Origin: a virus
Reading direction: 5' to 3' (one strand)
DNA length: 39,055 bases
IMG/VR virus record: IMGVR_UViG_3300003690_000121
Span: 1-39,055 of that record
In this document: positions 3,502 through 39,055 of the stretch, piece after piece
How positions within the stretch are numbered: position 1 is the first letter of the stretch
Layout of the letters: every line of letters starts with the position of its first letter
Notes under the pieces: generated by a model
Told to the model about the DNA's origin: nothing
What the model saw: the letters and a program-made list of their open reading frames with translations, nothing else
Database searches by the model: none
Program-made: the position numbers and the translations under genes

Positions 3502-4704
3502 TTAGGTGGTTGATAACGGCATGACATCGCGGACATGCCTGTCGATTCGGTTCTTTAATTGAGTCGCGTAGCCCACGAGCCCGGAATCACTGCCCGCTAA
3601 GTCCTGGTCGAGTTGGTCGAGCGCAAAGCGTCCGATAAGCGCGTCGCGTATCGGATCACGTCCCTCGAGCTTCGAAAGTCGTAATAACTCAATTGCTTCG
3701 GCGTTGTCGCGGCCGATACTTGCTGGCGCAGACGGAAACGTATTGGCCACCGAGGCCGCCTCTTGTCGCGGTAGAGGATCGGCCAGCCGACACTTCACCC
3801 GCCGCGCCCTGTACCAGCCAGCTACGGCAATGCCCAGGCCCAACGGCCCGCCGATTCCAAGCCCGGTAGCCGCCAACCGGCCTAACTGATATCCGCTTGC
3901 TTGCTCAGCGGTTGTCTTGGCGAGGTCTCGTACTTTCGCGCGGAGGGATTTATTAGCCTCGGCAACTTCCGCTTGGGCGGCGAATGGCTTTGCGGGCGCG
4001 GCCGCACCCGGCTGGCCTGCCGCTCCAGGCTGTCCGTCCTTGCCGTCTTGCCCCGCCGGACCGGGCGGCCCCGGCTTCCGTATCAACTCGCCCATCGCCT
4101 TTTTGAGCCGCTCAATTTCCTGCCGCAGCAGCTCCACGTCTTTACCGGCCGGCGGGGCGGGCTTCGGCGGCGCGGGGCGAGGTACATGGACTGCACCCGG
4201 TATCTCCACGACGGGCGGCGTTTTCCGCGCCTTGCGCCGCCCGGGTAAAATATTCCGCAAAAACCCCCGCAGCCGCTTGAGTCCGCAACCCGTGCCCGTG
4301 CCATCGTTGCTGTAACCGGTAATGACCGATACCAAACCGTCCTTCGCGTTCCACACCGGTCCGCCGCTATCGCCCTGTCGGGGCCGATGTTGTTGGCAGC
4401 GATATGTCGTATATCGCTCGGATGCCGTGACGATCCCCCCACCCGCCGCATAGCCCCGCCCGCCGTGCCCGGCAAACCAGACTTGCGAGCCTATCGCTGG
4501 CTCCTCTTCGGCCACCCGCATACCTGTCGCTGTGGGATGCGGCTTGATTTTCAGCAGCGCGATATCGCCCATCGGATCGGCGGCCACCACTTGCGCCACC
4601 CGGCCCGCGCCGTCATTGAAGTTGACGTATCCGCTCTTGTGCCCCTTGACCACGTGTGCGGCGGTTCTCACCCATGGGCCGCCCAAGTACGCGCCGGAGC
4701 CCAC
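3502..4704 (-). CDS. Trypsin-like serine protease with collagen-like and membrane segments (5' end disrupted)
   Basis: The open frame from GTG 4704 gives 400 residues. The chymotrypsin-fold triad is visible: His17 in TAAHVV, Asp47 in GDIALL, Ser113 in GDSGGPV. After a Pro-rich linker comes a coiled coil (about 188-210), a collagen-like Gly-X-Y stretch (about 212-235), a second helical segment, and one hydrophobic segment at about 277-298 followed by a basic, helical C-terminus. The protease core therefore probably sits outside the membrane with the tail inside. The natural N-terminus with its signal peptide lies upstream but is cut off by an 11-bp tandem duplication and a TGA. As sequenced, only reinitiation at GTG would give this product, without a signal peptide. 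Confidence 0.8.
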   Translation of the reverse strand: MGSGAYLGGPWVRTAAHVVKGHKSGYVNFNDGAGRVAQVVAADPMGDIALLKIKPHPTATGMRVAEEEPAIGSQVWFAGHGGRGYAAGGGIVTASERYTTYRCQQHRPRQGDSGGPVWNAKDGLVSVITGYSNDGTGTGCGLKRLRGFLRNILPGRRKARKTPPVVEIPGAVHVPRPAPPKPAPPAGKDVELLRQEIERLKKAMGELIRKPGPPGPAGQDGKDGQPGAAGQPGAAAPAKPFAAQAEVAEANKSLRAKVRDLAKTTAEQASGYQLGRLAATGLGIGGPLGLGIAVAGWYRARRVKCRLADPLPRQEAASVANTFPSAPASIGRDNAEAIELLRLSKLEGRDPIRDALIGRFALDQLDQDLAGSDSGLVGYATQLKNRIDRHVRDVMPLSTT

Positions 4705-5186: not shown

Positions 5187-5825
5187 TCACGCCGCCGCCT
5201 CCGTCAACGCCGCCTTGCACGCATCTTGAAAGGCGGGTAGCTCGTCCATCGACTCATGTGGCACATGATGCCATTCGCGTATGACTCCACTTACCGAATG
5301 GCCCATCGGCAAATTCTCTCGCTGGCGAAATACATGGCACTCGCCTACATTGGATGGCAGCCGAATCTTCGGACACAACCCCGGCACCACTCGCCCCGCC
5401 AGCCACAACGCATCCCAAACCAACAGCCGCATCCAATGTACCTTCTGCCTTCCACGCGGCCGATGCGGCGGAATCACCGCGCGGATGCGTCCCAATAGAC
5501 TCGGACTCCTGTACACAGGATCGGTCAAAATTATTCGATGCACCTTGATTTGACGCTTGCGTAGCTCCAGAGCCAACTTGATTCCGCCCCATCCGGCCCC
5601 GTAGCTGTACGCAAAAATGAATACCTGGGGCACCTCCCGCCCGTTGGTGTGCAGATTACGGAACTGCTCCGCCCAGCCCGACCAGTCGGAGTTCCAAGGT
5701 AGCGGACCCTTGACCACCAGATCTGGAATCCGCGCGGCATCCAGATCCTTTGCCAGTTTCATCATCCCGCAATTCCATCCTCGCGGCTGGCGGAAGCCGG
5801 ATATCAGGAAGGCGTATTTGGTCAT
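5187..5825 (-). CDS. Alpha/beta-hydrolase-like protein (possible lysis esterase)
   Basis: A 212-residue protein whose sequence fits an alpha/beta hydrolase: an early beta strand (YAFLISGF), a nucleophile elbow AYSYGAG with Ser74, an acid in ILTDPVY (Asp102) and candidate catalytic histidines at 186-190 (EWHHVPH). No signal peptide is seen. It is the first gene after the csrA terminator, and its ATG lacks a clear Shine-Dalgarno site. The preceding leader folds into a GGA-bearing hairpin. Esterases near lysis genes are known in other phages (LysB); a similar role here is inference only. Confidence 0.7.
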   Translation of the reverse strand: MTKYAFLISGFRQPRGWNCGMMKLAKDLDAARIPDLVVKGPLPWNSDWSGWAEQFRNLHTNGREVPQVFIFAYSYGAGWGGIKLALELRKRQIKVHRIILTDPVYRSPSLLGRIRAVIPPHRPRGRQKVHWMRLLVWDALWLAGRVVPGLCPKIRLPSNVGECHVFRQRENLPMGHSVSGVIREWHHVPHESMDELPAFQDACKAALTEAAA

Positions 5826-5878
5826 CGTGTTAAAACCGGGGGCGGAAATCCGTTTCCGCCTGATCCGGCTCTTCCTAT
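5826..5878 (-). promoter_or_regulatory. GGA-rich leader with hairpin before the hydrolase start
   Basis: On the coding strand the leader contains four GGA motifs in about 40 bases. The last sits in the tetraloop of a perfect 8-bp hairpin (GGCGGAAA, loop CGGA, TTTCCGCC; plus coordinates 5841-5860). GGA in a hairpin loop close to a start codon is the classic CsrA/RsmA target layout, and a phage csrA lies directly upstream. The link is inference. Confidence 0.5.
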
Positions 5879-5918
5879 AAAAAACGGGCTCGCACGATTA
5901 GGGAATCGCACGGCCCGT
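5879..5918 (-). terminator. Intrinsic terminator after csrA
   Basis: On the minus strand an imperfect GC-rich hairpin (about 15 bp including G-U pairs and one bulge; outer arms ACGGGC and GCCCGT, loop CCCT) is followed directly by six T residues. It lies 20-60 bases after the csrA stop and should end at least part of the transcription from the early operon. Confidence 0.75.
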
Positions 5919-5940
5919 TCCATGTGGCCGAACTGTATAT

Positions 5941-6123
5941 TTACCCGGATTCTATATCCGATTCTGGCAATTTGTCAAGCTCCGCCCGCAATATCCGCGT
6001 TTCGGTGGGTGCGCTGATGAATATCCGCACATGGCTCTTAGTCAGGCGGACTACCGTGATTTTTACATCCTCGCCAATCAGAATAGATTGGCCCTTCTTC
6101 CGCGTCAGCACCAGTCCTGGCAT
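5941..6123 (-). CDS. csrA: CsrA-family translational regulator
   Basis: The 60-residue product is a full-length CsrA/RsmA homologue: it begins MPGLVLTRKKGQSILIGEDV, followed by KITVVRLTKSHVRIFISAPT, the characteristic five-strand core with the RNA-binding N-terminal strand and the IxISAP segment. CsrA dimers bind GGA motifs in mRNA leaders and block or protect them. A phage copy could redirect host carbon-storage, motility or biofilm control, or time the phage's own genes. ATG 6123 has a GGAGGG site. The gene follows a Planctomycetota-type small protein and is closed by an intrinsic terminator. Confidence 0.93.
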   Translation of the reverse strand: MPGLVLTRKKGQSILIGEDVKITVVRLTKSHVRIFISAPTETRILRAELDKLPESDIESG

Positions 6124-6141: not shown

Positions 6142-6372
6142 TTATCCCCCTCGGTTACCATCTGCCCCCGATTCACTACTCGACTTGCGGATTTTTTTGC
6201 TCAAGACGGCCGCGTCGTACCAAGTGAAGCTCAACTCTGGGTTGGACGCAAACCGACCGAGTCGCCGCAGTGTCTTGGCCCGGCTATCCTCGTCGTAAAG
6301 GAAGACGTATCGCTCCTCGCCTTTGACCAGCGCAAGCACGTTGATACCGGTGTCCTGGATTCGTTTAGCCAT
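6142..6372 (-). CDS. Small conserved protein of a Planctomycetota-type family
   Basis: A 76-residue protein starting MAKRIQDTGINVLALVKGEE and continuing RYVFLYDEDSRAKTLRRLGR. From memory this closely resembles short proteins of unknown function that are common in Planctomycetota genomes, often near CsrA-type genes. The start is ATG 6372, with a near-ideal GGAGGTGAGTG site inside the end of the upstream gene, overlapping it by 8 bases. A GTG just upstream is not preferred. It is the best host clue in the window. Function is unknown. Confidence 0.8.
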   Translation of the reverse strand: MAKRIQDTGINVLALVKGEERYVFLYDEDSRAKTLRRLGRFASNPELSFTWYDAAVLSKKIRKSSSESGADGNRGG

Positions 6373-6383
6373 CACTCACCTCC
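6365..6383 (-). repeat. Gene-junction cassette, copy A
   Basis: The plus-strand sequence TTAGCCATCACTCACCTCC recurs at 7155-7173 as TTAGCCATCGCTCGCCTCC (17 of 19 identical). Each copy holds the upstream gene's last codons (Ser-Asp-Gly-stop), the ribosome site and the next start (Met-Ala-Lys). A shortened version lies at 6918-6932. Confidence 0.7.
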
Positions 6384-6541
6384 ACACCTACCATTACATC
6401 AAATAGCCTCCCGCACTCTTGGCACCACGCCTCACCGAGAAAATCTACTTTCTCATCATGCAATAATTGCATTTGGTCGTCGTGACGTTGCTGGCATGTT
6501 TGGCAATCAGATGTGTCCTCGATTTCAAGTCGTTTCCACAT
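6365..6541 (-). CDS. Small zinc-ribbon-like protein, 58 aa
   Basis: A 58-residue product from ATG 6541 behind GGGAGGTG. It holds two Cys-x2-Cys pairs (CQTC near residue 13, CQEC near residue 40), typical of a small zinc ribbon. It overlaps the upstream gene by 17 bases and the downstream gene by 8 bases, in the same tight style as its neighbours, which supports it as real despite its size. A nucleic-acid or protein-binding role is likely; nothing more specific can be said. Confidence 0.7.
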   Translation of the reverse strand: MWKRLEIEDTSDCQTCQQRHDDQMQLLHDEKVDFLGEAWCQECGRLFDVMVGVEVSDG

Positions 6542-6920
6542 CACGCACCTCCCGTCCTGCTGTCATAAACCATTTATCGGAATCGAACATCCAGGCATAG
6601 TGGTGCATCCGGTCGTAGCCGCGCGCGACTTTAATGAGACTCCATCCAGCAGCTACGTAATCCTCCGTGTACACTACGCAGCAATTGTCCTCTGGACCAC
6701 AGGGGCAGTGAGTATCATCGCCACGTATTTCAGTTAGCCAAAACACGTCCTCTGGAAAATAGTATTCTATTTTGTCGGGTAAAAAAAATATTGCGGTTTC
6801 TTGATCGAACGTAATCATCATGCCTGCTATCGGAACAAATGGCAGGGTAACGTACCGCTCGTACTCTGCTTCTCCATCTTTACGGACATCAGTTAAATAC
6901 AACCAACAGTCAAATGGCAT
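6525..6920 (-). CDS. Hypothetical protein, 131 aa
   Basis: Starts at ATG 6920, which overlaps the upstream TGA (TGATG), with GGAGGTGAG before it. The first 50 residues (MPFDCWLYLTDVRKDGEAEY) are beta-rich and the middle contains the Cys cluster HCPCGPEDNCC, followed by an aromatic-rich end. It looks like a compact accessory protein, perhaps metal-binding. No family was recognised. It sits in a run of short overlapping genes after ruvC. Confidence 0.75.
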   Translation of the reverse strand: MPFDCWLYLTDVRKDGEAEYERYVTLPFVPIAGMMITFDQETAIFFLPDKIEYYFPEDVFWLTEIRGDDTHCPCGPEDNCCVVYTEDYVAAGWSLIKVARGYDRMHHYAWMFDSDKWFMTAGREVRDVETT

Positions 6921-7162
6921 CACTCACCTCCAGTTTCAATCTCATCGACGGTAACGCGAACGCGGACAACCGTGTACTCGTACCCCACAACGCAGTTATC
7001 CCTATATCCCTGCGCGGCGACTTGCGCATGTCTTTTGTCTGGGTGAAGTTTTGGTGGGCACACCATACTCCCCCCCCCATCATAACAGAACCCGCTCTCT
7101 TCCAGTTTTTCAGAGTTGAACAACACCGCCCACCGCTCGAACGTTTCAGTCTGTTTAGCCAT
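6920..7162 (-). CDS. Hypothetical protein, 80 aa
   Basis: Starts at ATG 7162 (MAKQTETFERWAVLFNSEKL) with AGGAGGCGAG upstream, overlapping the end of the RuvC gene by 8 bases. A longer in-frame start lies inside ruvC and has no site. The product is a small mixed protein with a central Gly-rich turn and a Val/Arg-rich last strand. It shares the start context GTGATGGCTAAA-type with the gene at 6372, suggesting a copied gene junction. Function is unknown. Confidence 0.75.
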   Translation of the reverse strand: MAKQTETFERWAVLFNSEKLEESGFCYDGGGSMVCPPKLHPDKRHAQVAAQGYRDNCVVGYEYTVVRVRVTVDEIETGGE

Positions 7163-7631
7163 CGCTCGCCTCCTGTTCTTCATGCACCAGCGAACCATCC
7201 ACTAGCGTTGTCCTCCGGCAGTACTCAGCCAGCAGCACGGCATCCGCTATATCGTGCGTGATTTTGAGAGACGGAAATAACTCGCTGGCTTTCGCCTTCG
7301 TGATATTCTTGTCGCCACCCGTGCGGCACTTCATGTACCCCTGCCACTTCGCCGGACGCACCATCTCAAACGGGATGCCCATTGCAATCAGCAGCCCGCG
7401 CAGAAATCCAAACGACTGGCCGAACTTAAACATCGAAACCACTCCCTGTTTCGGCATGGCGTTTACCTGCTCTAGGATTGCAAAACACTTGGAATAGCGG
7501 TAACCGTTAAGAAAATCGGCGATGTCCCGCTCTGTGTTTTTTTTGGGATTCAAAACGCACGTCTCGATTACGTCGTGGTCGATGGTGGCTATCGCCCCGC
7601 TGGCTCCTGGGTCCACGCCGAGGTAGATCAT
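7155..7631 (-). CDS. ruvC: RuvC-like Holliday junction resolvase
   Basis: A 158-residue RNase-H-fold nuclease. The acidic catalytic residues are visible: Asp7 in GVDPGASGAIA, Glu54 in AILEQV, and the C-terminal HDIADAVLLA with Asp127 and Asp130. Phage RuvC enzymes cut branched DNA before packaging and during recombination. The length is close to the bacterial enzyme. ATG 7631 has an AAAAGGAG site. It follows an unknown protein and belongs to the replication block with the Sak4-like ATPase and SSB. Confidence 0.88.
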   Translation of the reverse strand: MIYLGVDPGASGAIATIDHDVIETCVLNPKKNTERDIADFLNGYRYSKCFAILEQVNAMPKQGVVSMFKFGQSFGFLRGLLIAMGIPFEMVRPAKWQGYMKCRTGGDKNITKAKASELFPSLKITHDIADAVLLAEYCRRTTLVDGSLVHEEQEASDG

Positions 7632-8108: not shown

Positions 8109-8177
8109 CCGCAGGCCACAGGGCTCGAACCCGCCGCCCCTTCGGAGACTGCCCTGCCAAATCGGGCTAACCTACGG
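8109..8177 (-). ncRNA. tRNA-like cloverleaf without a usable anticodon loop
   Basis: The minus strand can fold as a cloverleaf: acceptor CCGTAGG with CCTGCGG (7 bp), D-arm GCCC-GATTTGGCA-GGGC with the GG of a D-loop, a 5-bp third arm closed by only CGAA, and a T-arm with the canonical loop TTCGAGC. There is no CCA, no 7-base anticodon loop and almost no variable loop. It fills the gap between two genes and overlaps the last codons of the methyltransferase. It may be a decayed tRNA, a tRNA mimic or an RNA-processing site. Confidence 0.4.
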
Positions 8178-9870
8178 GCTTGGGTGTTTCCTTTAGTGCC
8201 CAAATTACTTCCTCAAAGTCGATGTGCGGGCTGCCTTTCGACTCACATAATCTTCTGAAAAAACTCTTGCGTGATTTCGTTTTTACAATCGGATCGCCGA
8301 ACAGCCCCGGGTGCTCGTCGCGCTTGACCAGCCAGCATCGGCATCTTTCAAAAACTGTGAACCCGACATGATCTAGTAGCTGGGCCGTCTGGTCGCAGAG
8401 CGGGACACGTTTTCCTGCTCTTATGAAGTCCTTGACCACGATAGCGGCCACGGCACCGGACTTCATAGCGAGGTACATCTGCTGGTAGACCTGCGAAACG
8501 GCTTCCCAATATGTTTGGCCTTCCATTGCAGATACATTTCCTTCCGTGTTGTATCCACCATCAGGGTTGACCGTAAACGCCACCCGGCCCGGTTTCTGCG
8601 CCAACACTCCAGCCGATGCCTTGGTGTGCTCACTGCCGCCAAATCCAGGACTCGTCACCGCCCCGTCTAGGCTCCCGCCCGGCAGGTTGCCGATGTTGCC
8701 GGGCGTGTCGCCGTAGCCCTCCCGGCAAGCGCTACCTGTGTTCTGTTTTATCCATTCCGCCGACTTGTCGCTGCGATTCTTAATAGACTGTGCGCTGGCC
8801 GTGTCCCCAGAGAGAAATGGCGGAGAAGTCAGCACGCCGTCGAGACTGCCTTGCGTTTCCAACTCATTGGACCGTTGCTCTTGGGGAGAGGCTTGCCCGC
8901 TTTCTTCGCTGCCCACCACTTCTTCTTGGTGATGCTCATGTGGCAGGGATTGCAAATCACCTGAAGATTCTCCAGCCGGTTGTCGTAGTGGTCGTCGTTC
9001 TTGTGATGGATACCCAACTTCTCCGTGCTGCCGCAATGACTGCACTGGTTCTTGACAACCAATTTTCGGTATAGTACCGAAGACTTTCCGTCTTTGAATT
9101 GATGATGCTCCGGTCCGCGCCTTCCTTTCGATCTCCTCGCAAGTTTCGACCGTTTCATTACTTTGTGAATTACAGCCTTTGTAACCCCGTAATACTCCGC
9201 GATCTGTTGTTGACTGAATCGACACCGATGATAAAGATGCTCGATCTCTTTCCTTCGGCTGTTCCACATGTCCTTTGATGACGGTGGACGCCTCTCTAGC
9301 CCCCATTTCTTCATCCAGTTGGATATCGTCTGTAGACTTACTCCGAATTGGCTGGCAATCGTCTGAAGTGATTTCCCGCTCTTGTACAACTTGGCAATCG
9401 TCACTTTTGTTGGCTTCATGTGAATCTCCCAGTGTAGTACGCGCAAACTCCCGGCTGTCACCACAAATCATCTGAGGCATCGGATCGCCCGACTCCTCCC
9501 ACTTGATTTTGTGCAGCCGGAAATTCTCACGGGCCAATCCCACGAAGGTCGGCTCCAGTTCCACACCTACCCACCGCAAGCCATTGTATGCCGCGACAAT
9601 GCCGCCACCGCCGATCCCTCCGAATGGGTCGCCGATAACTTGGCCCGGCTTCCAATGCCCCGCGCTGAGCCCGTGGCGGACGATCCTGGTCGCCAGGCTA
9701 TACGAAAACTTAGCTGGATGGGCAAAAGCCGCCTTCGTGATCAGCGACGCCCAGCCCTGCTCATAACAATTATGCCAGGATAGCCACTTACACTGCGGCG
9801 TTTTTTTATTGGTTTGTTTTGCGTCCATTGTGTCCATGTATATATTTTCTCGGACGACCACGATTGTCAT
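8167..9870 (-). CDS. DNA methyltransferase (N4/N6 type) interrupted by an in-frame HNH insertion
   Basis: A 567-residue frame. Residues about 70-115 hold the S-adenosylmethionine site (GDPFGGIGGGG and VGVELEP), followed by CGDSRE near 138. The catalytic TSPPF appears only near residue 350, followed by repeats SLDGAVTSP and the family's typical C-terminus (GLFGDPIV, then KSFFRRLCESKGSP and HIDFEEVIWALK). Residues about 150-340 are hydrophilic, low in structure and unlike the family: this stretch is the HNH gene read in another frame. Without it the enzyme would be about 375 residues, normal for this phage family. ATG 9870 follows the upstream stop by 5 bases and has no clear ribosome site. Confidence 0.82.
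   Translation of the reverse strand: MTIVVVRENIYMDTMDAKQTNKKTPQCKWLSWHNCYEQGWASLITKAAFAHPAKFSYSLATRIVRHGLSAGHWKPGQVIGDPFGGIGGGGIVAAYNGLRWVGVELEPTFVGLARENFRLHKIKWEESGDPMPQMICGDSREFARTTLGDSHEANKSDDCQVVQEREITSDDCQPIRSKSTDDIQLDEEMGAREASTVIKGHVEQPKERDRASLSSVSIQSTTDRGVLRGYKGCNSQSNETVETCEEIERKARTGASSIQRRKVFGTIPKIGCQEPVQSLRQHGEVGYPSQERRPLRQPAGESSGDLQSLPHEHHQEEVVGSEESGQASPQEQRSNELETQGSLDGVLTSPPFLSGDTASAQSIKNRSDKSAEWIKQNTGSACREGYGDTPGNIGNLPGGSLDGAVTSPGFGGSEHTKASAGVLAQKPGRVAFTVNPDGGYNTEGNVSAMEGQTYWEAVSQVYQQMYLAMKSGAVAAIVVKDFIRAGKRVPLCDQTAQLLDHVGFTVFERCRCWLVKRDEHPGLFGDPIVKTKSRKSFFRRLCESKGSPHIDFEEVIWALKETPKPVG
8829..9419 (-). CDS. HNH homing-type endonuclease nested in the methyltransferase gene
   Basis: A 196-residue product from ATG 9419 with GGGAG at 8 bases; an upstream start at 9464 is less likely. 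Two HTH segments come first (SLQTIASQFGVSLQTISNW and QQIAEYYGVTKAVIHKVM), then an HNH nuclease domain: CSHCG, LGIHHKNDDHYDNRLENLQV, CNPCH. This is the usual layout of free-standing homing endonucleases. It reads in a different frame from the methyltransferase over the same DNA, with its stop inside the methyltransferase's LDGVLT region. It has probably invaded the gene at a conserved motif. Confidence 0.88.
   Translation of the reverse strand: MKPTKVTIAKLYKSGKSLQTIASQFGVSLQTISNWMKKWGLERRPPSSKDMWNSRRKEIEHLYHRCRFSQQQIAEYYGVTKAVIHKVMKRSKLARRSKGRRGPEHHQFKDGKSSVLYRKLVVKNQCSHCGSTEKLGIHHKNDDHYDNRLENLQVICNPCHMSITKKKWWAAKKAGKPLPKSNGPMSWKRKAVSTAC
9628..9660. repeat. 33-bp near-identical segment, copy 1
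   Basis: Matches 10637-10669 at about 30 of 33 bases. Here it encodes GHWKPGQVIGD of the methyltransferase, next to its cofactor site; in the other copy it encodes GHWHPGQIIGD of an unrelated protein. Confidence 0.8.
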
Positions 9871-16872: not shown

Positions 16873-16900
16873 ATTATAGGTATCGGCGTATGGTTGTCAA
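16873..16900 (-). promoter_or_regulatory. Strong sigma70-type promoter for the early operon
   Basis: On the minus strand TTGACA (16900-16895) and TATAAT (16878-16873) match the consensus exactly, with a 16-base spacer. Transcription would begin near 16866, giving a leader of about 40 bases before the first early gene. The spacer contains ATACGCCG, one half of the palindrome found in front of the HTH regulator gene. Confidence 0.8.
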
Positions 16901-18296: not shown

Positions 18297-19931
18297 TCAG
18301 CGTCCGGCTGCGGCTTCTTCTGCCGCTCCAAGCCGCTCAAGTGTTGCCGCCTTTAAAGCTTGCCAGTTACGTAAATTTTCCTGCCGCCGCCGCTCTTTAT
18401 AGCTCGGCGTAACCCGGTGCCCCTCGATGTTGCGGCTGGCGTGCGTCGTGGCCCCGCTGCCGCCCACCGTCCAGGTCACCTGCTGGATTGCCCCATCCGG
18501 TTCGATGGGCACCAACCCGGCGTATTGGATCGTGGTCGCGGGGCGCGGTTCATATTCCTTGACCAGCGCATCGAGATAGTGTTCACCTTCCGGGTCGATG
18601 GTGGGGCGGTTGTTAATTGTTTCCGTGACATTATTTTGGTCATCGTACTCTGCCCGAAACTTCGCAACTATCTCTGGGTGCCAGACGACGCGCGGACCCG
18701 TTTTGTTATTCTGGTCAACCGCCCGATCCCACTGGTCGCGGACCTTGACACCCTCTTCGTCAGTCACCTCGTAGGTGGTTGTCAGGTAGAGCTCAGCTTG
18801 TCCGTGCTCGCCGGGCGCCACCTTAACAACCGGCTGACTAAACTGGACGATGCCTCGCTGCGCATCGATAGAGAATCCGTGTTTGTCCGCCGGGTAGCGG
18901 GTGCCTGCCGCCGTGTTGGCACGATCCTCACCTTCGGGGTAAAACACGCCCTCGACAAACGCCTCCAGCGGGCGTTTCACCCCGTCCACGTCCACCGCCT
19001 CTTGATTCAATTTGTCTCCGATGGGCAAGATTTGTTTGACCGCATCTACCGCCCCGTAGCCCGGCACGTTTTGCGTGCCGTCAGCCTGGCTGACTACCCG
19101 ATACCACTTGAACACGGTCTTGGCGGCTAGCGAATGCTGCGCCGCGGCGACATCCCCAAAACTATCCGTGGGCACCGTTTCCCAGCCGTTTGCCGGCTTG
19201 TACGACAGGTCGTCGATTTTCTTTATCTCGCCCTCCGTATCCTCGCCCACCGCCTCCAGCTTCAACTTCGATTGGAATCTCGTCGGGCCGCCCTTGATGG
19301 CAATCTTGCTGGGGCGCAGCAACGCATCGACCCCGATGCCGGCAGACATCTCCACGCCGCCCAGTGGCAGCTCGCTGCCCTCACCCAGCCGGTGGATGAC
19401 CACCTTGTTTTTCAGAGTCAACACGATCCGGCAGTTGAGCGACTCACAGAGCGATGCTAACTCCTGAGCCGGGTTGGCGGAGTCCCAAAAGATAATCGGT
19501 CGGCTCTTGTTGGGCAGCGTCGATAAGTCGAAGTTCTGCTCTTTCATTGCTTCCAGCAACAACTTCGCCAACTCCTGCGGCGTCTTTTCGTTGCCTTCTT
19601 CCGTATCAATCACCCCGCTGGGCAGTCGGCGGTTGTATCTGCCCGTAATCTCGCCGTATTGCCAGCGCCAGCGGCGGTCTAGCACGGTTAGCGTCTGGAC
19701 ATGCCCCTGCTGGCTGAACCGCATAGAGGGGTTGTTAGCGGCACATTCAGGGAAGTCGATGCGCACTGAACCGAATGTAAAAGACAGCGTTCCAAGGCTG
19801 GCGGTGTAGGCAGCCTGGGGAGCGAAGGTAATCAGGCAACTACTCGGGGTGATCCCATGCACCAGCGAAAAGCTGGCGGAAATGATCTGTTGAAGCCCAG
19901 GGAAATGGGCGAGCCCCTGCAGGTCCGGCAT
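18297..19931 (-). CDS. Tail-tip/baseplate-hub-like protein
   Basis: A 544-residue protein. The first 120 residues (SFTFGSVRIDFPECAANN and VLDRRWRWQYGEITGRYNRR) and the following helical segment with NPAQELASLCESLNCRIVLT resemble phage hub proteins of the gp27/gpD type, which carry a domain for retrieving a short helical insert before a second beta barrel. The central region is beta-rich and the last 50 residues form a charged helix (SYKERRRQENLRNWQALKAA). Position after the tape measure and before the fibre-like gene fits a distal-tail or hub protein. Its ATG touches the stop of the upstream gene. Confidence 0.62.
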   Translation of the reverse strand: MPDLQGLAHFPGLQQIISASFSLVHGITPSSCLITFAPQAAYTASLGTLSFTFGSVRIDFPECAANNPSMRFSQQGHVQTLTVLDRRWRWQYGEITGRYNRRLPSGVIDTEEGNEKTPQELAKLLLEAMKEQNFDLSTLPNKSRPIIFWDSANPAQELASLCESLNCRIVLTLKNKVVIHRLGEGSELPLGGVEMSAGIGVDALLRPSKIAIKGGPTRFQSKLKLEAVGEDTEGEIKKIDDLSYKPANGWETVPTDSFGDVAAAQHSLAAKTVFKWYRVVSQADGTQNVPGYGAVDAVKQILPIGDKLNQEAVDVDGVKRPLEAFVEGVFYPEGEDRANTAAGTRYPADKHGFSIDAQRGIVQFSQPVVKVAPGEHGQAELYLTTTYEVTDEEGVKVRDQWDRAVDQNNKTGPRVVWHPEIVAKFRAEYDDQNNVTETINNRPTIDPEGEHYLDALVKEYEPRPATTIQYAGLVPIEPDGAIQQVTWTVGGSGATTHASRNIEGHRVTPSYKERRRQENLRNWQALKAATLERLGAAEEAAAGR

Positions 19932-20518
19932 TAGATTGCGCTCGGAGTAATTGTCATGTGCGTGCCAAGATCAAGCGTTACGCTGGCAAGGTCGGAGCGG
20001 GTCACATCGATGCCATTGGTCCAGGTCACCGTTTTGAACGGATCGTGAATCGCTCCCCGCTCGTGCAATTCGCAGTTGGTCACCGTGCGTGCCTGGCTGT
20101 CGCGGCGGAAGTCCAACACGCCGTCAGAGCCGACTCGGGCCGTCGTGATAGTCCCCGTGCCCCGGTAGAGCACCGTGCCGGCGTCGATCTCGATAGTCGT
20201 CTGGGCACCGCTCAGGACTGTTAGCTCGCCGCCTATCAGGTTGGTGGTCGTGGCAGCGGAGTCGATCTGCAATGTGCCGCCAGATTGGGTGATCGTGGTC
20301 AACGTCGTGCTCGTACCGCAAAGCACCCGAGCATCGCCCGCCTGGTTGTCCAGGTAGCCGACTCGCAGCGTAGCAATGGTCGCCGCCTCGCCATCCTCAA
20401 TCGCCACCCCCACATCACCTTTGAGAATGTTGGCCACGTTGCTGGCGTGCGTGCCTACCCAGCGGATGGCGGGCACGGCCGTCTCATCGCGCTGGCCGCT
20501 ATTGGATACGTTCAACAC
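19931..20518 (-). CDS. C-terminal part of a frameshifted beta-rich virion protein
   Basis: Open frame of about 195 residues from a non-ATG start at 20518; the frame is in fact open further upstream to about 20655 and reads TTTISIGEGEGSGSGRIRLN before this point. The sequence is repetitive beta-structure (TLTTITQSGGTLQIDSAATT), like a beta-solenoid. It continues the protein encoded at 20512-21204 after a -1 shift of frame. Together they make a protein of about 425 residues. Confidence 0.65.
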   Translation of the reverse strand: MLNVSNSGQRDETAVPAIRWVGTHASNVANILKGDVGVAIEDGEAATIATLRVGYLDNQAGDARVLCGTSTTLTTITQSGGTLQIDSAATTTNLIGGELTVLSGAQTTIEIDAGTVLYRGTGTITTARVGSDGVLDFRRDSQARTVTNCELHERGAIHDPFKTVTWTNGIDVTRSDLASVTLDLGTHMTITPSAI

Positions 20519-21204
20519 CGCCTGGCCCGTGCCGCTGTTGAGCCGAATACGTCCCGAGCCGCTGCCCTCGCCCTCGCCAATCGAGATCGTGGTCGTCGGT
20601 ACTCCCGATAGGTCAATGAGGAGTTGTCGCTGTTTGTTTCGGGAAGCCCGATTTTTCCCGTGTAGCTCTGGAAAATCGTAATTGACGTTGCCGTTACACC
20701 GTTCTGGTCGATGTTGTATTTCAGGTCCACATCTCCAGAATCAAATACGATATCATCGTCGTCCACCGGAACCGTCGTACCGCTCCAGTTGTCCGCGTTG
20801 TCAAAGAAGTTCTTTCCCGTGGCTGCGGTAGCAGTAGCTTCGACCGATGTACCAGAACCGGCGGTGACTTCCACTACCGCCAACGTAAACGGCACGCCCT
20901 TGTCGCTGGTCAACGTGACTACCGAACCGGAGACCGTAGCCGTTAGCTCGGCAAATTCACCGATGTTGTCTCCGGTCTCGCTAAACGTATGGTTTCCGGT
21001 GCCTGTTTGTGTCGTGTTGCTGACCATTTCCTGGATAGCAAGAGCCACTTGAGCGGTTGTCGTATCTGTGCCCACGGTCAACACAAGGTCTTTCCCGTTG
21101 ATCGTGAGCGTACACGTATCGGCAGTCGCCCAGGTGTTTGCCACAGTTATGGTATCGACCTGGGAAACGTCTACCGCGTCTCCAAACCAGCGTCGTGTTG
21201 CCAT
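20512..21204 (-). CDS. N-terminal part of a frameshifted beta-rich virion protein
   Basis: From ATG 21204 with AGGAGATAAG. Residues 1-190 are beta-rich (MATRRWFGDAVDVSQVDTIT, later DNADNWSGTTVPVDDDDIVF), a pattern seen in phage and Planctomycetota surface proteins. After about YREYR the frame becomes Arg-rich nonsense (RRPRSRLARARAAARD), while the -1 frame continues the true protein. One missing base between about 20585 and 20640 explains this. A slippery heptamer G GGA AAA in frame at 20659-20653 is an alternative, programmed explanation. Confidence 0.68.
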   Translation of the reverse strand: MATRRWFGDAVDVSQVDTITVANTWATADTCTLTINGKDLVLTVGTDTTTAQVALAIQEMVSNTTQTGTGNHTFSETGDNIGEFAELTATVSGSVVTLTSDKGVPFTLAVVEVTAGSGTSVEATATAATGKNFFDNADNWSGTTVPVDDDDIVFDSGDVDLKYNIDQNGVTATSITIFQSYTGKIGLPETNSDNSSLTYREYRRPRSRLARARAAARDVFGSTAARARRC

Positions 21205-21208
21205 GATC

Positions 21209-21922
21209 TTATCTCCTATTCGGCGTGCCCGATTCCGCCTGCGCGGACTCAAAATGGTGGACCCAACTGATCGGCCAGTCGGTAAATGAGTTGCCGTTCC
21301 ATCGCGGAGGGCCCACAGTTCGGTCTCGGCGGTCAACGTGTTCGGCGGACGGGAATATCGGCGACGGGTAATCCGGGTAGCTCAAGTGCCCGACCGCGCT
21401 GCCCGCTTGGACGATGTTCATCGTCGTCCGCTGGTTGACAATCTGTTTCTGCGGAACCCCGTTGAGCACCGGCAGGAACACGAACCGCAAGCCTGCGTTG
21501 CCGGAAAATCGCAGCGTCTCCTGCCAGGACAGCAGGCTAATCGCAGTGTTGGCAAAGTCCGCCTCGACCGTGACGCTGACCGTCCGCTGGGTCGCGTACT
21601 CGGCCCCGTGTCCCTGCTGAAAATTCACGGCCACTACCCGTGTACCGCTGATCGACGCGCTGCTGTCCAGGAAATGCGTGCTAACCGTGTTGTCATCGTG
21701 GTACAAGCCGAAGTCTCCGCCGTTGCTTCCATAGGCCGATTCGACATTGGCAATTGCCGTCTTGATCGTGGCTTGGGTGGAGGCGATCAGCACCGCCTGG
21801 ATACTGAGCGTCTTGCGGGTAGTCCGCACCTCGCCGCGATTGCTGTAGAGCAACCGTTGGGTCATGCTCACCAGGTTGGCCTCGTTGGCGGCATGTTGGA
21901 ATGTTCCGTATTTTACGTACAC
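21209..21922 (-). CDS. Tail protein (distal tail-like)
   Basis: A 237-residue product if GTG 21922 is used, 7 bases after the upstream stop; a TTG at 21961 would add 13 residues but has no ribosome site. The sequence (VYVKYGTFQHAANEANLVSM, then RTTRKTLSIQAVLIAS and TQRTVSVTVEADFANT) is beta-rich and fits a distal tail or tail-tip adaptor protein in a siphovirus, located right after the tape measure module. A conserved-looking LLSWQETLRFSGNAG follows. Confident only as a tail component. Confidence 0.65.
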   Translation of the reverse strand: MYVKYGTFQHAANEANLVSMTQRLLYSNRGEVRTTRKTLSIQAVLIASTQATIKTAIANVESAYGSNGGDFGLYHDDNTVSTHFLDSSASISGTRVVAVNFQQGHGAEYATQRTVSVTVEADFANTAISLLSWQETLRFSGNAGLRFVFLPVLNGVPQKQIVNQRTTMNIVQAGSAVGHLSYPDYPSPIFPSAEHVDRRDRTVGPPRWNGNSFTDWPISWVHHFESAQAESGTPNRR

Positions 21923-21929
21923 TGGTGCG

Positions 21930-22190
21930 TTACTTATCCTTGGGCCGCAGGTGACGCTCAATTTCTAGGACGGCGAGAGCGATTACTGATTGAACAAAAC
22001 TACTCCCTGATATCAATAAAGCCACCCCGTACCAGGTTGCTGCATCTGACGCACGTTCAGAATTCCACATAACGAAGAAAAACACAGCCATCGCGGCTGA
22101 GATCACTGCAATCGACATAATGATGCCTTTACCAACATTGAGCAGCTTCTCCGTCAGTGTGGATTCCAGAAAATCATCTAAGTTATTCAT
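21930..22190 (-). CDS. Small two-TM membrane protein in the tail module
   Basis: An 86-residue product from ATG 22190 with AGGAGATA. Two hydrophobic segments, about residues 22-42 (GIIMSIAVISAAMAVFFFVM) and 54-74 (YGVALLISGSSFVQSVIALA), are separated by a short polar turn with the basic C-terminus ERHLRPKDK inside. This topology fits a class II holin or a membrane protein that assists DNA entry. It lies just behind the tape measure gene, an odd place for a holin. A second holin-like candidate lies at 1114-1455. Confidence 0.72.
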   Translation of the reverse strand: MNNLDDFLESTLTEKLLNVGKGIIMSIAVISAAMAVFFFVMWNSERASDAATWYGVALLISGSSFVQSVIALAVLEIERHLRPKDK

Positions 22191-31394: not shown

Positions 31395-33032
31395 CTACGG
31401 GTAGACCTCCTGGAGCAACTGGCGTGCTTCATCCGTGGTCTCGACGCTCTCCAAGGCGGCTTGCAAAGCTACCTGCGAAGTGCTGCCAGGAACCAACGGA
31501 CCACCCGTCATTGTCAAGGGCGGCTCGTCCTCGATATTCTGCCTCTCCACGTCGTAATCTAAGTCCTCCTGGGCGGCCCAAGTCTTGCGAGACATAACGC
31601 CCGCCTGACTGAGCGTGCTGCGAATGGTGGTTTCTTCCTGCCGGTTGCGGCTACTCACGCGAGGCGGAGTAATCGACAGGTTAACCAATCGTCTCAGTGC
31701 AGCGAAGTCAACACCGAATGCACCGTGGTCCGCCGCCGTTTTCAGCACAATCCAGATCACATTTTCAAACTGACGTTTGTAGTACATCTGCTTTGCTTCA
31801 GCAGACTTGACGAACGGTCCCTCGGCAACCAACAGGCTGGCAAAGTTGGCGTTGGACGCATCGCCGGAGATCATGTTCTCCGGCATCGACCAGCGAACCG
31901 CCACGCTTCGGAGCACGGCCTGGACAACGGAGATAAACGGAGGCACCCGCTGGGAGCCCATCGGACCAGGTTTGTATTGCCGGCCGACTGTGTTTAGGAT
32001 AGTTCCTGGATCAAACCGCCGTGTTCGAGTGGTTCGCGTGCCGCCGTCTGGCGTAGACTGCCTAAGCGTGTGATCGGTTTGCGCACTGCGGAGCGTCTCA
32101 ATATCGCCCTTAGCCGTGCCTTTGGCGTCTTCCGTAATGTAGGCAATGGCCGCCTGAATGGCCGCGCCTTCCGCCGTATTCCGCAACACCTTGGCCGCCC
32201 GCTTGATCTTCTTTTCCGTGGGGAAAAAATCAGACAGTCCACGCTTGATATTTCGGTCTACATTTAACTTTGCATGGATCATCTCGGACACTGGCACGAA
32301 CTCCCAATCGTTCGGATCACCGTCCCACTGGACGTGAAATCCATGGACCCGCTGTACGTCTCGAATGTCAGAGGCCACGCCGAAGGTCCAATCGAGAGAG
32401 TCCGCGCCCACATATTCGTTCATGAATCGCTTGTCCGCCGGCTCCGTCACGAATTCAGGCTCGACTAAACGGGCCTCCGTCAAGCCACCGCCTACATGAT
32501 GCAGTCGTAAAAAAAACTCACCGTCTCGCCTGCTGCGAACAAACAACTCCCGGTCCAAGTCTCCGTCCCAGTCGTTTCGCTCCAGAAAATTATCGATAAC
32601 TGATTGCACGCGGGCGATCAACTGGCTCGACTCGCCGGTTTCATTGCGGGCTACCGCCGCATACTCAAAGCCGGTCCCGATAATGTAGTTGACCAGATTC
32701 TCCATCACGCCGATTGCTGTTTCATCCGACGCCGTCAACCAGCGGGCCATACCGCGAATCTGATTGAGTTGCGATTCCGTCTCGAACACGGGCCGATAGC
32801 GGCCATGTTTGCGATCCTGCGGATGGGTGGTCGTCGGATTGTAGTGGCCGCCGCCGAATCCAGGGGAGTCAAACAACATCTCCCGGTAATCGATCAGGCT
32901 CGGTACGGATGTGGCTTCGTGGACCGGTTGCAGGCGGCTGGTGAGGTCCGCAATCTCAGATTGCATGAGCAATGTATCACGTTGCTCTGTTAGCTGCTGG
33001 AGCGACAGCGTTTGTTCTGTTTCGATTACCAT
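31395..33032 (-). CDS. Portal protein
   Basis: A 545-residue protein, lambda-B/HK97-like in layout: SLIDYREMLFDSPGFGGGHY, RGMARWLTASDETAIGVMEN (early helical part), FFLRLHHVGGGLTEARLVEP and NDWEFVPVSEMIHAKLNVDR (wing), then SGDASNANFASLLVAEGPFV in the crown-stem part, a typical portal motif. ATG 33032 lies only 15 bases behind the T-tract of an intrinsic terminator and has no visible ribosome site, so expression probably depends on read-through or RNA processing. ATG at residue 23 is no better. Confidence 0.87.
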   Translation of the reverse strand: MVIETEQTLSLQQLTEQRDTLLMQSEIADLTSRLQPVHEATSVPSLIDYREMLFDSPGFGGGHYNPTTTHPQDRKHGRYRPVFETESQLNQIRGMARWLTASDETAIGVMENLVNYIIGTGFEYAAVARNETGESSQLIARVQSVIDNFLERNDWDGDLDRELFVRSRRDGEFFLRLHHVGGGLTEARLVEPEFVTEPADKRFMNEYVGADSLDWTFGVASDIRDVQRVHGFHVQWDGDPNDWEFVPVSEMIHAKLNVDRNIKRGLSDFFPTEKKIKRAAKVLRNTAEGAAIQAAIAYITEDAKGTAKGDIETLRSAQTDHTLRQSTPDGGTRTTRTRRFDPGTILNTVGRQYKPGPMGSQRVPPFISVVQAVLRSVAVRWSMPENMISGDASNANFASLLVAEGPFVKSAEAKQMYYKRQFENVIWIVLKTAADHGAFGVDFAALRRLVNLSITPPRVSSRNRQEETTIRSTLSQAGVMSRKTWAAQEDLDYDVERQNIEDEPPLTMTGGPLVPGSTSQVALQAALESVETTDEARQLLQEVYP

Positions 33033-33046
33033 GTGCAACAAGAACG

Positions 33047-33086
33047 AAAAAAGCCCGCGTCCTTCCCGGATTGGAAGGACACGGGC
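33047..33086 (-). terminator. Intrinsic terminator between the packaging genes and portal
   Basis: On the minus strand GCCCGTGTCCTTCC pairs with GGAAGGACGCGGGC (14 bp with one G-U pair, 6-base loop) and is followed directly by six T residues. It stands 23 bases after the preceding stop codon and just in front of the portal start. Confidence 0.87.
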
Positions 33087-33108
33087 CCTGGTGCTCAGTG
33101 ACCCTGGA

Positions 33109-33300
33109 TTAATAAGTTTTCTCGTATATCTCAGTGATTCGATGTATTTGACCGTTTTCCACACTGACTGTCAAGCCAACTCGGCCGAAGAAGTCATCCC
33201 GCTTGGCGATTCCCAATAATTCAGCCAGGCGAGTCAGCGCATCGTTAGAGCGATGCTCGTTGCTTGTTGTGGTGTTTTTGTGGGGTTTATGGGGCTTCAC
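33109..33300 (-). CDS. Small DUF2292-like protein
   Basis: A 63-residue product from GTG 33300, overlapping the TerL stop, with GGGTGATGG upstream. The last 30 residues (FFGRVGLTVSVENGQIHRIT) match the pattern of DUF2292 (YezG-like) proteins, a short beta-hairpin domain of unknown function. The first 20 residues are polar. It is the last gene before the terminator. The family call is from memory and tentative. Confidence 0.6.
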   Translation of the reverse strand: MKPHKPHKNTTTSNEHRSNDALTRLAELLGIAKRDDFFGRVGLTVSVENGQIHRITEIYEKTY

Positions 33301-38862: not shown

Positions 38863-39055
38863 CTATACCCTCGGGAAACCTGTCTCGTCGCGTCGCCAGA
38901 CCACAAAGTCGTCCGTTGTGGAGTTGGCCAGTTCATTGCGGATGCCGTGGCTCGTCGCCGTCTCGTTCGATGTGGCGGAACCGTAGGTGATGCGGTTGCC
39001 GCCGTCCACGTAGGCGGTGATCGTCTGCGCATCCGCAACAGCAATCAACTGATAT
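38863..39055 (-). CDS. Fibre-like virion protein, C-terminal part (continues from the left end)
   Basis: This is the 3' end of the gene that starts at 1117. From the right edge it reads QLIAVADAQTITAYVDGGNR and ends with ETGFPRV. The stop TAG at 38863 lies four bases before the next start. The ATG-like start sometimes seen at 39048 is an artefact of the cut. The segment forms the last strands of the jelly-roll domain. Confidence 0.8.
   Translation of the reverse strand, partial: YQLIAVADAQTITAYVDGGNRITYGSATSNETATSHGIRNELANSTTDDFVVWRRDETGFPRV
38994..39055. repeat. Right copy of the 62-bp terminal redundancy
   Basis: Matches bases 1-62 except 39018 (T instead of G). This copy encodes Thr where the left copy encodes Pro. 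See the left copy. Confidence 0.85.

Follow-up and report, generated by a model that had tools for sequence, protein, structure and literature searches.

In a 39-kb phage whose host is probably a planctomycete, a hairpin lying between csrA and the next gene downstream is a plausible CsrA-binding site in the leader of a late transcript, where it would modulate the first late gene. We put this reading forward tentatively; a terminator-type or stabilizing hairpin whose loop fits by chance ranks close behind it and is almost as likely. The phage is represented by a single virus record (IMGVR_UViG_3300003690_000121), and the window, i.e., the whole stretch of DNA analyzed here, spans its 39,055 bases. 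The features on which the argument turns are listed below; the genes, the terminator, the hairpin and its consensus match, and the promoter consensus are read directly from the DNA.

6142–6375, minus strand: orf77, phage-borne copy of a gene found on planctomycete chromosomes, directly upstream of csrA
5941–6123, minus strand: csrA, encoding a CsrA-family RNA-binding protein of 60 aa (Pfam PF02599, PHROG 9500)
5949–5978, minus strand: sigma-70-like promoter TTGACA-18-TAGAAT, 11/12 consensus, within the 3′ end of csrA
5878–5922, minus strand: intrinsic terminator separating csrA from the hydrolase gene, stem ~5887–5922, U run from 5885
5826–5878, minus strand: leader with four GGAs, 53 bases between the terminator and the hydrolase ATG
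5841–5860, minus strand: hairpin GGCGGAA-ACGGAU-UUCCGCC, candidate high-affinity CsrA site
5187–5825, minus strand: first gene beyond the terminator, encoding an alpha/beta-hydrolase-like protein of 212 aa with an AYSYG motif resembling a nucleophile elbow
16873–16900, minus strand: sigma-70 promoter TTGACA-16-TATAAT, a perfect 12/12, at the start of the early module

Genome Organization and the Probable Early/Late Junction

All recognized genes in the window lie on the minus strand. The two ends (1–60 and 38996–39055) repeat ~58 bases with one mismatch, and an open reading frame continues across the joined ends; the genome is therefore circular or circularly permuted and near complete, although the record is a single linear contig. 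Rfam and tRNA scans of the window gave no matches. Followed round the circle on the minus strand, the gene order is:

hydrolase (5825), trypsin-like protein (4704), nuclease (2108), then the ends
after the ends, DNA methyltransferase (37545), terminase (34778), portal (31395–33164), and capsid (28761)
after the capsid, tape measure (23612), then tail genes down to 17401
after the tail genes, the replication and recombination genes: exonuclease (15065), Sak4 (13987), replication initiator (12456), and RuvC-like resolvase (7631)
after the RuvC-like resolvase, small genes, with csrA last

A whole-genome scan for sigma-70 sites matching at least 11 of the 12 consensus bases returned two, against 0.3 expected, and these two best promoters fall at the two module boundaries (16900 and 5978). 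From the promoter at 5978–5949, transcription is predicted to start at ~5942, just upstream of the terminator. Because the genome is circular, and given the positions of the two near-consensus promoters, the early module probably ends with csrA and the hairpin probably lies in the late leader; the late unit as a whole appears to open with the hydrolase-like gene. Most simply, 5826–5942 would not lead into a lysis cassette but would form the leader of the late transcript, with a terminator that has to be read through.

The intrinsic terminator that the earlier note placed after csrA is indeed present, with a stem of −23.2 kcal/mol and a U run in a T-rich tail. An ACAUGGA element overlaps the foot of its stem, and the minus strand has only one other strong U-tract terminator. 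At the level of sequence, the early/late boundary carries a strong predicted promoter with an intrinsic terminator immediately behind it.

The Phage CsrA and Its Neighbor

The identification of csrA as a full homolog, made in the earlier note from the letters alone, is borne out by profile searches. Its product matches Pfam PF02599 with 67 bits against a cut-off of 27 (E = 1.4e-18) and PHROG 9500, a CsrA-like regulator, with E = 4.5e-11, and the gene is preceded by a GGAGG ribosome site. The nearest cellular relative found is a planctomycete CsrA with 57% identity. Against the NCBIfam equivalog for housekeeping CsrA, the protein scores 51.3 bits, below the cut-offs of 70.1 and 73; by these profiles, it is therefore a true family member, but a divergent one and not a standard ortholog. 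Inspection by eye shows that it retains R46 (R44 in E. coli) and the N-terminal LVLTRK strand, and RNA binding is predicted; also by eye, KSH replaces GNQ beside the usual RNA-binding loop, and F stands in place of the usual Gly33 (E. coli numbering).

Directly upstream, orf77 is up to 72% identical to a planctomycete chromosomal gene that adjoins xerC-like genes, with matches at E ≤ 0.001 in 34 of 294 planctomycete genomes; searches of Pfam, PHROG, and NCBIfam gave no match. Fifteen viral contigs carry orf77, which lies directly before csrA in one (L125) and near csrA in another (L063), and gene positions suggest that the two genes tend to travel together in early modules. As for csrA in planctomycetes, many genomes have 6–12 matches (for instance, 12 in G049 and 10 each in G292 and G182) and others have one, and at least one copy in G206 is located on a prophage.

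The First Gene after the Terminator

Downstream of the leader, the product of 5187–5825 can be described, weakly, as alpha/beta-hydrolase-like: a low-confidence structural model gave weak fold matches to thioesterases and hydrolases. Neither Pfam nor PHROG yielded a match, and a PDB sequence search returned chance-level matches only; the protein is 33–39% identical to the product of a gene in a planctomycete prophage. The gene had been proposed to head an ‘exit module’, a label that finds no support here, as the product is only weakly hydrolase-like and no holin or endolysin was recognized among the proteins scanned. That the gene lacks a ribosome site is correct, in that no Shine–Dalgarno sequence is found upstream of 5825 and there is thus none for CsrA to overlap or mask, but this is nothing special in a genome where ~24 of 49 starts checked are likewise without one, and its absence was rejected as a sign of control.

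The Leader and Its Hairpin

The leader at 5826–5878 folds at −22.7 kcal/mol (z = −3.6), and none of 200 shuffles is as stable. Its GGAs start at 5875, 5866, 5857, and 5851, i.e., at −50, −41, −32, and −26 relative to the start codon (ATG at 5825). Folding is predicted to bury the −32 GGA within the stem and to pair the −41 GGA in part, which leaves only the AGGA at −50 and the ACGGA at −26 accessible. This second accessible AGGA is 24 nt upstream of the hairpin loop site, within the bridging range of 10–60 nt between paired sites (PMC4066749). Four GGAs are present as first noticed, but their number is ordinary, with one GGA per ~42 nt on the minus strand and leaders with four GGAs before three other genes besides the hydrolase gene, so we rejected dense GGA as evidence in itself. 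Along the same lines, CSRA_TARGET, which predicts CsrA targets from sequence rules (PMC4066749), asks for A(N)GGA at −30 to +5, at least three sites, and at least two pairs 10–60 nt apart. It accepts the leader with a transcription start at 5942 and refuses it with a start after the terminator. As it also accepts 14 of 56 genes in this genome (25%) and 12% of random positions, its rules are too permissive here for a match to serve as proof.

The hairpin itself is less ordinary. The perfect 8-bp hairpin with a GGA loop, described in the earlier note as standing ~15 bases before the hydrolase start, is found at 5841–5860 and ends 15 nt before the ATG. It can be read two ways, either as 8 bp closed by a CGGA loop or as 7 bp carrying the hexaloop ACGGAU. 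An ANGGAX hexaloop seated directly on a stem is the high-affinity form of a CsrA/RsmE site (PMC4005645), and the second way of reading the hairpin conforms to this consensus; the loop GGA is a better candidate for a CsrA-type site than the earlier reader knew. Moreover, the hcnA stem-loop, the structure of which has been solved bound to RsmE, has ACGGAU as its loop (PMC4005645), a match that we noticed after the fact.

How surprising such a loop is depends on the comparison made. Apart from the hairpin at 5841–5860, neither strand of the genome has an ANGGAN hexaloop hairpin with at least 4 bp in its stem; shuffled sequences lead one to expect 0.945 per strand with stems of at least 4 bp and 0.015 with stems of at least 7 bp. 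Under a conditional null built from other fetched loci, an ANGGAN loop caps 3 of 198 hexaloop hairpins of at least 7 bp (1.5%), which gives a chance of ~1.5% for this hairpin in particular. The minus strand has six hexaloop hairpins of that stem length, so the chance of one ANGGAN loop somewhere is ~8%.

Conservation among Related Phages

For comparison, 38 viral csrA loci were collected from IMG/VR by a profile-led scan, all of them from distant relatives. None of the 38 has an ANGGAN hexaloop hairpin near csrA, and the exact hairpin sequence has no copy in any IMG/VR contig. Relatives with csrA but without the hairpin had been named beforehand as an outcome that would count against control of the leader by CsrA, and this is what every locus surveyed shows. 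As all these relatives are distant, however, the absence is not decisive for this phage, and a private site is compatible with it.

Searches with peptide patterns in IMG/VR recovered no close relatives of csrA, the hydrolase, or the terminase. Similarly, the hydrolase matched nothing among known phage records, and a two-sequence hydrolase profile gave no confirmed match in IMG/VR. A hydrolase homolog was found only in the planctomycete prophage of G206 (IMGVR_UViG_2839682702_000002), which, as here, also carries csrA, but with the two genes ~29 kb apart, and the idea of a conserved csrA–hydrolase unit was rejected on this ground. The hydrolase start of the prophage overlaps the stop codon of the upstream frame, with no leader and no hairpin. 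In other related contigs, csrA belongs to the early module, with exonuclease or Sak4 genes close by. As far as collections show, the csrA–leader–hydrolase arrangement is private to this phage.

A Possible Role for the Hairpin and Its Alternatives

On our preferred reading, csrA would end the early transcript, and a late promoter in its 3′ end would start late transcription, which would meet the terminator at once; read-through would then enter a leader bearing a CsrA-family hairpin site. Here, a CsrA dimer of phage or host origin could hold the ACGGAU loop (−28 to −23) together with the AGGA (−51); read-through RNA would offer it the AUGGA at −96 as well. Once bound, CsrA may alter how well the mRNA of the first late gene is translated or how stable it is, most likely repressing the gene and delaying its expression. 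That the promoter is active, that transcription reads through, that CsrA binds, and which way the effect goes are inferred. CsrA-family proteins can also act on mRNA stability or termination, and the hairpin lies at the upstream edge of the position of an initiating ribosome. Against a CsrA site we count the lack of any relative with the hairpin, the lack of a Shine–Dalgarno sequence to mask, the permissiveness of CSRA_TARGET, the after-the-fact loop match, the distance of 15 nt to the ATG, and the substitutions seen by eye beside the RNA-binding loop of the protein. That the phage CsrA, produced last in the early module, is itself an early-to-late timer that binds the late leader and determines how far the late operon is read through and/or translated is a more demanding proposal that we consider quite unlikely; CsrA would then contact the AUGGA at the terminator foot, the AGGA, and the ACGGAU hairpin, and do the job of Q in λ.

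The serious competitor, with a probability that also falls somewhat short of even, is a hairpin that is structural only, either the second half of a tandem terminator or an mRNA-stabilizing element, with the GGA in its loop a coincidence and csrA acting elsewhere, on host or other phage mRNAs. In favor of such an element, a GC-rich stem in two parts (GCCGG/CCGG plus the 8-bp hairpin), with TTTT behind it, comes directly after the real terminator; against it, the run of T is short, and the lower stem pairs with this run and contains a 4-nt bulge. The absence of the hairpin from all 38 loci, the leaderless hydrolase start in the related prophage, and the ~8% chance of one such loop somewhere on the strand all agree with a coincidence; what argues the other way is that the loop is exactly the high-affinity consensus and the only one in the genome, and that it stands directly after csrA and before a start codon.

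Two further explanations give the leader a different part to play. An abundant late leader might be a decoy of the CsrB/RsmZ kind that, once late transcription begins, titrates away CsrA of the phage or the host and sets other mRNAs free. Within ~117 nt of 5′ RNA there are several A(N)GGA sites, one of them of the high-affinity form, which would suit this purpose, as would the Csr-rich hosts made likely by planctomycete genomes with 6–12 csrA matches, but we judge it very unlikely: there is one strong site only, as opposed to the several loops of sponge RNAs such as RsmZ with its four stem-loops (PMC4005645), and no separate short RNA is evident, the Rfam scan having found nothing. Alternatively, the key device might be the promoter–terminator pair at 5978–5885, a late promoter with an attenuator governed by processive antitermination, with csrA merely in the place of Q or affecting read-through through the AUGGA at the terminator foot. 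The 11/12 promoter with a strong terminator within ~25 nt of its predicted start speaks for this, together with a second strong terminator at 33053 in the late unit and the overlap of ACAUGGA with the terminator stem foot. We nevertheless regard it as unlikely, since no Q-like protein is recognized upstream, and the promoter is a prediction of a quality for which one match has a modest chance expectation.

If the leader binds CsrA, it would provide a compact case of a regulator beside a single strong site and explain the retention of csrA by phages; failing that, csrA most likely alters host mRNAs in csrA-rich planctomycetes.

Comparison with Known Systems

In λ, the last early gene is followed by the late promoter pR′, an immediate terminator, tR′, and then the late genes, with Q as the antiterminator. 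The region 5978–5885 resembles pR′-tR′ in having, behind the probable final early gene, a predicted late promoter with a terminator at once downstream and then the late genes. Whereas λ has Q, no Q homolog is recognized here and csrA occupies its position; Pfam and NCBIfam scans of the small genes at 6142–7198 turned up nothing Q-like.

The RBS stem-loop in the hcnA 5′-UTR of Pseudomonas, a target of RsmE/RsmA, shares with the phage hairpin the ACGGAU loop directly on the stem (PMC4005645), and both leaders have further upstream GGA sites for a bridging dimer. The hcnA loop overlaps the ribosome binding site, whereas the phage hairpin ends short of an ATG that has no Shine–Dalgarno sequence, and its closing pairs are A-U, unlike those of hcnA.

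Phage-borne csrA is itself already known, as are CsrA sites of the ANGGAX form in bacteria. For instance, csrA/rsm alleles were reported in 30 of 2517 phages (PMC7366521), and Burkholderia phage JC1 carries a CsrA-family gene (PMC9144972), as do Pseudomonas phage F116 and Vibrio phage 234P8. In F116, csrA is followed by a terminator-like hairpin, as here. The known phage CsrA-family proteins are less than 60% identical to this one and come from other hosts and contexts. No ANGGAN hexaloop hairpin occurs within 4 kb of csrA in F116 or 234P8, and a CsrB-like RNA after csrA was rejected for both 234P8 (413-nt gap) and F116 (175-nt gap), neither having a GGA hairpin array. Although phage CsrA proteins have been catalogued, we found no paper in the open-access literature that names a phage target for one.

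Additional Features of the Genome

Several observations concern other parts of the genome. At 33053–33174 (minus strand), a 10/12 promoter-like site precedes the strongest terminator of the genome (−31 kcal/mol, CTTTTTTC), which separates terL from portal within the late unit; a ribosome site is likewise missing at the start of portal downstream of it (~33032). The gene at 3502–4704 (minus strand) encodes a protein in which a trypsin-like protease is joined to a collagen-like repeat and a C-terminal region, and the G206 prophage (L036) also has a trypsin-like gene. Consecutive tail genes at 18297–21961 (minus strand) have homologs in the same order, with 29–41% identity, in L053, a 77-kb contig that also has csrA, in the opposite orientation. 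Finally, a 211-aa frame with HNH-endonuclease-like residues (8829–9464) overlaps a long methyltransferase frame within 8167–9870 (minus strand) and looks like an inserted homing-type gene.
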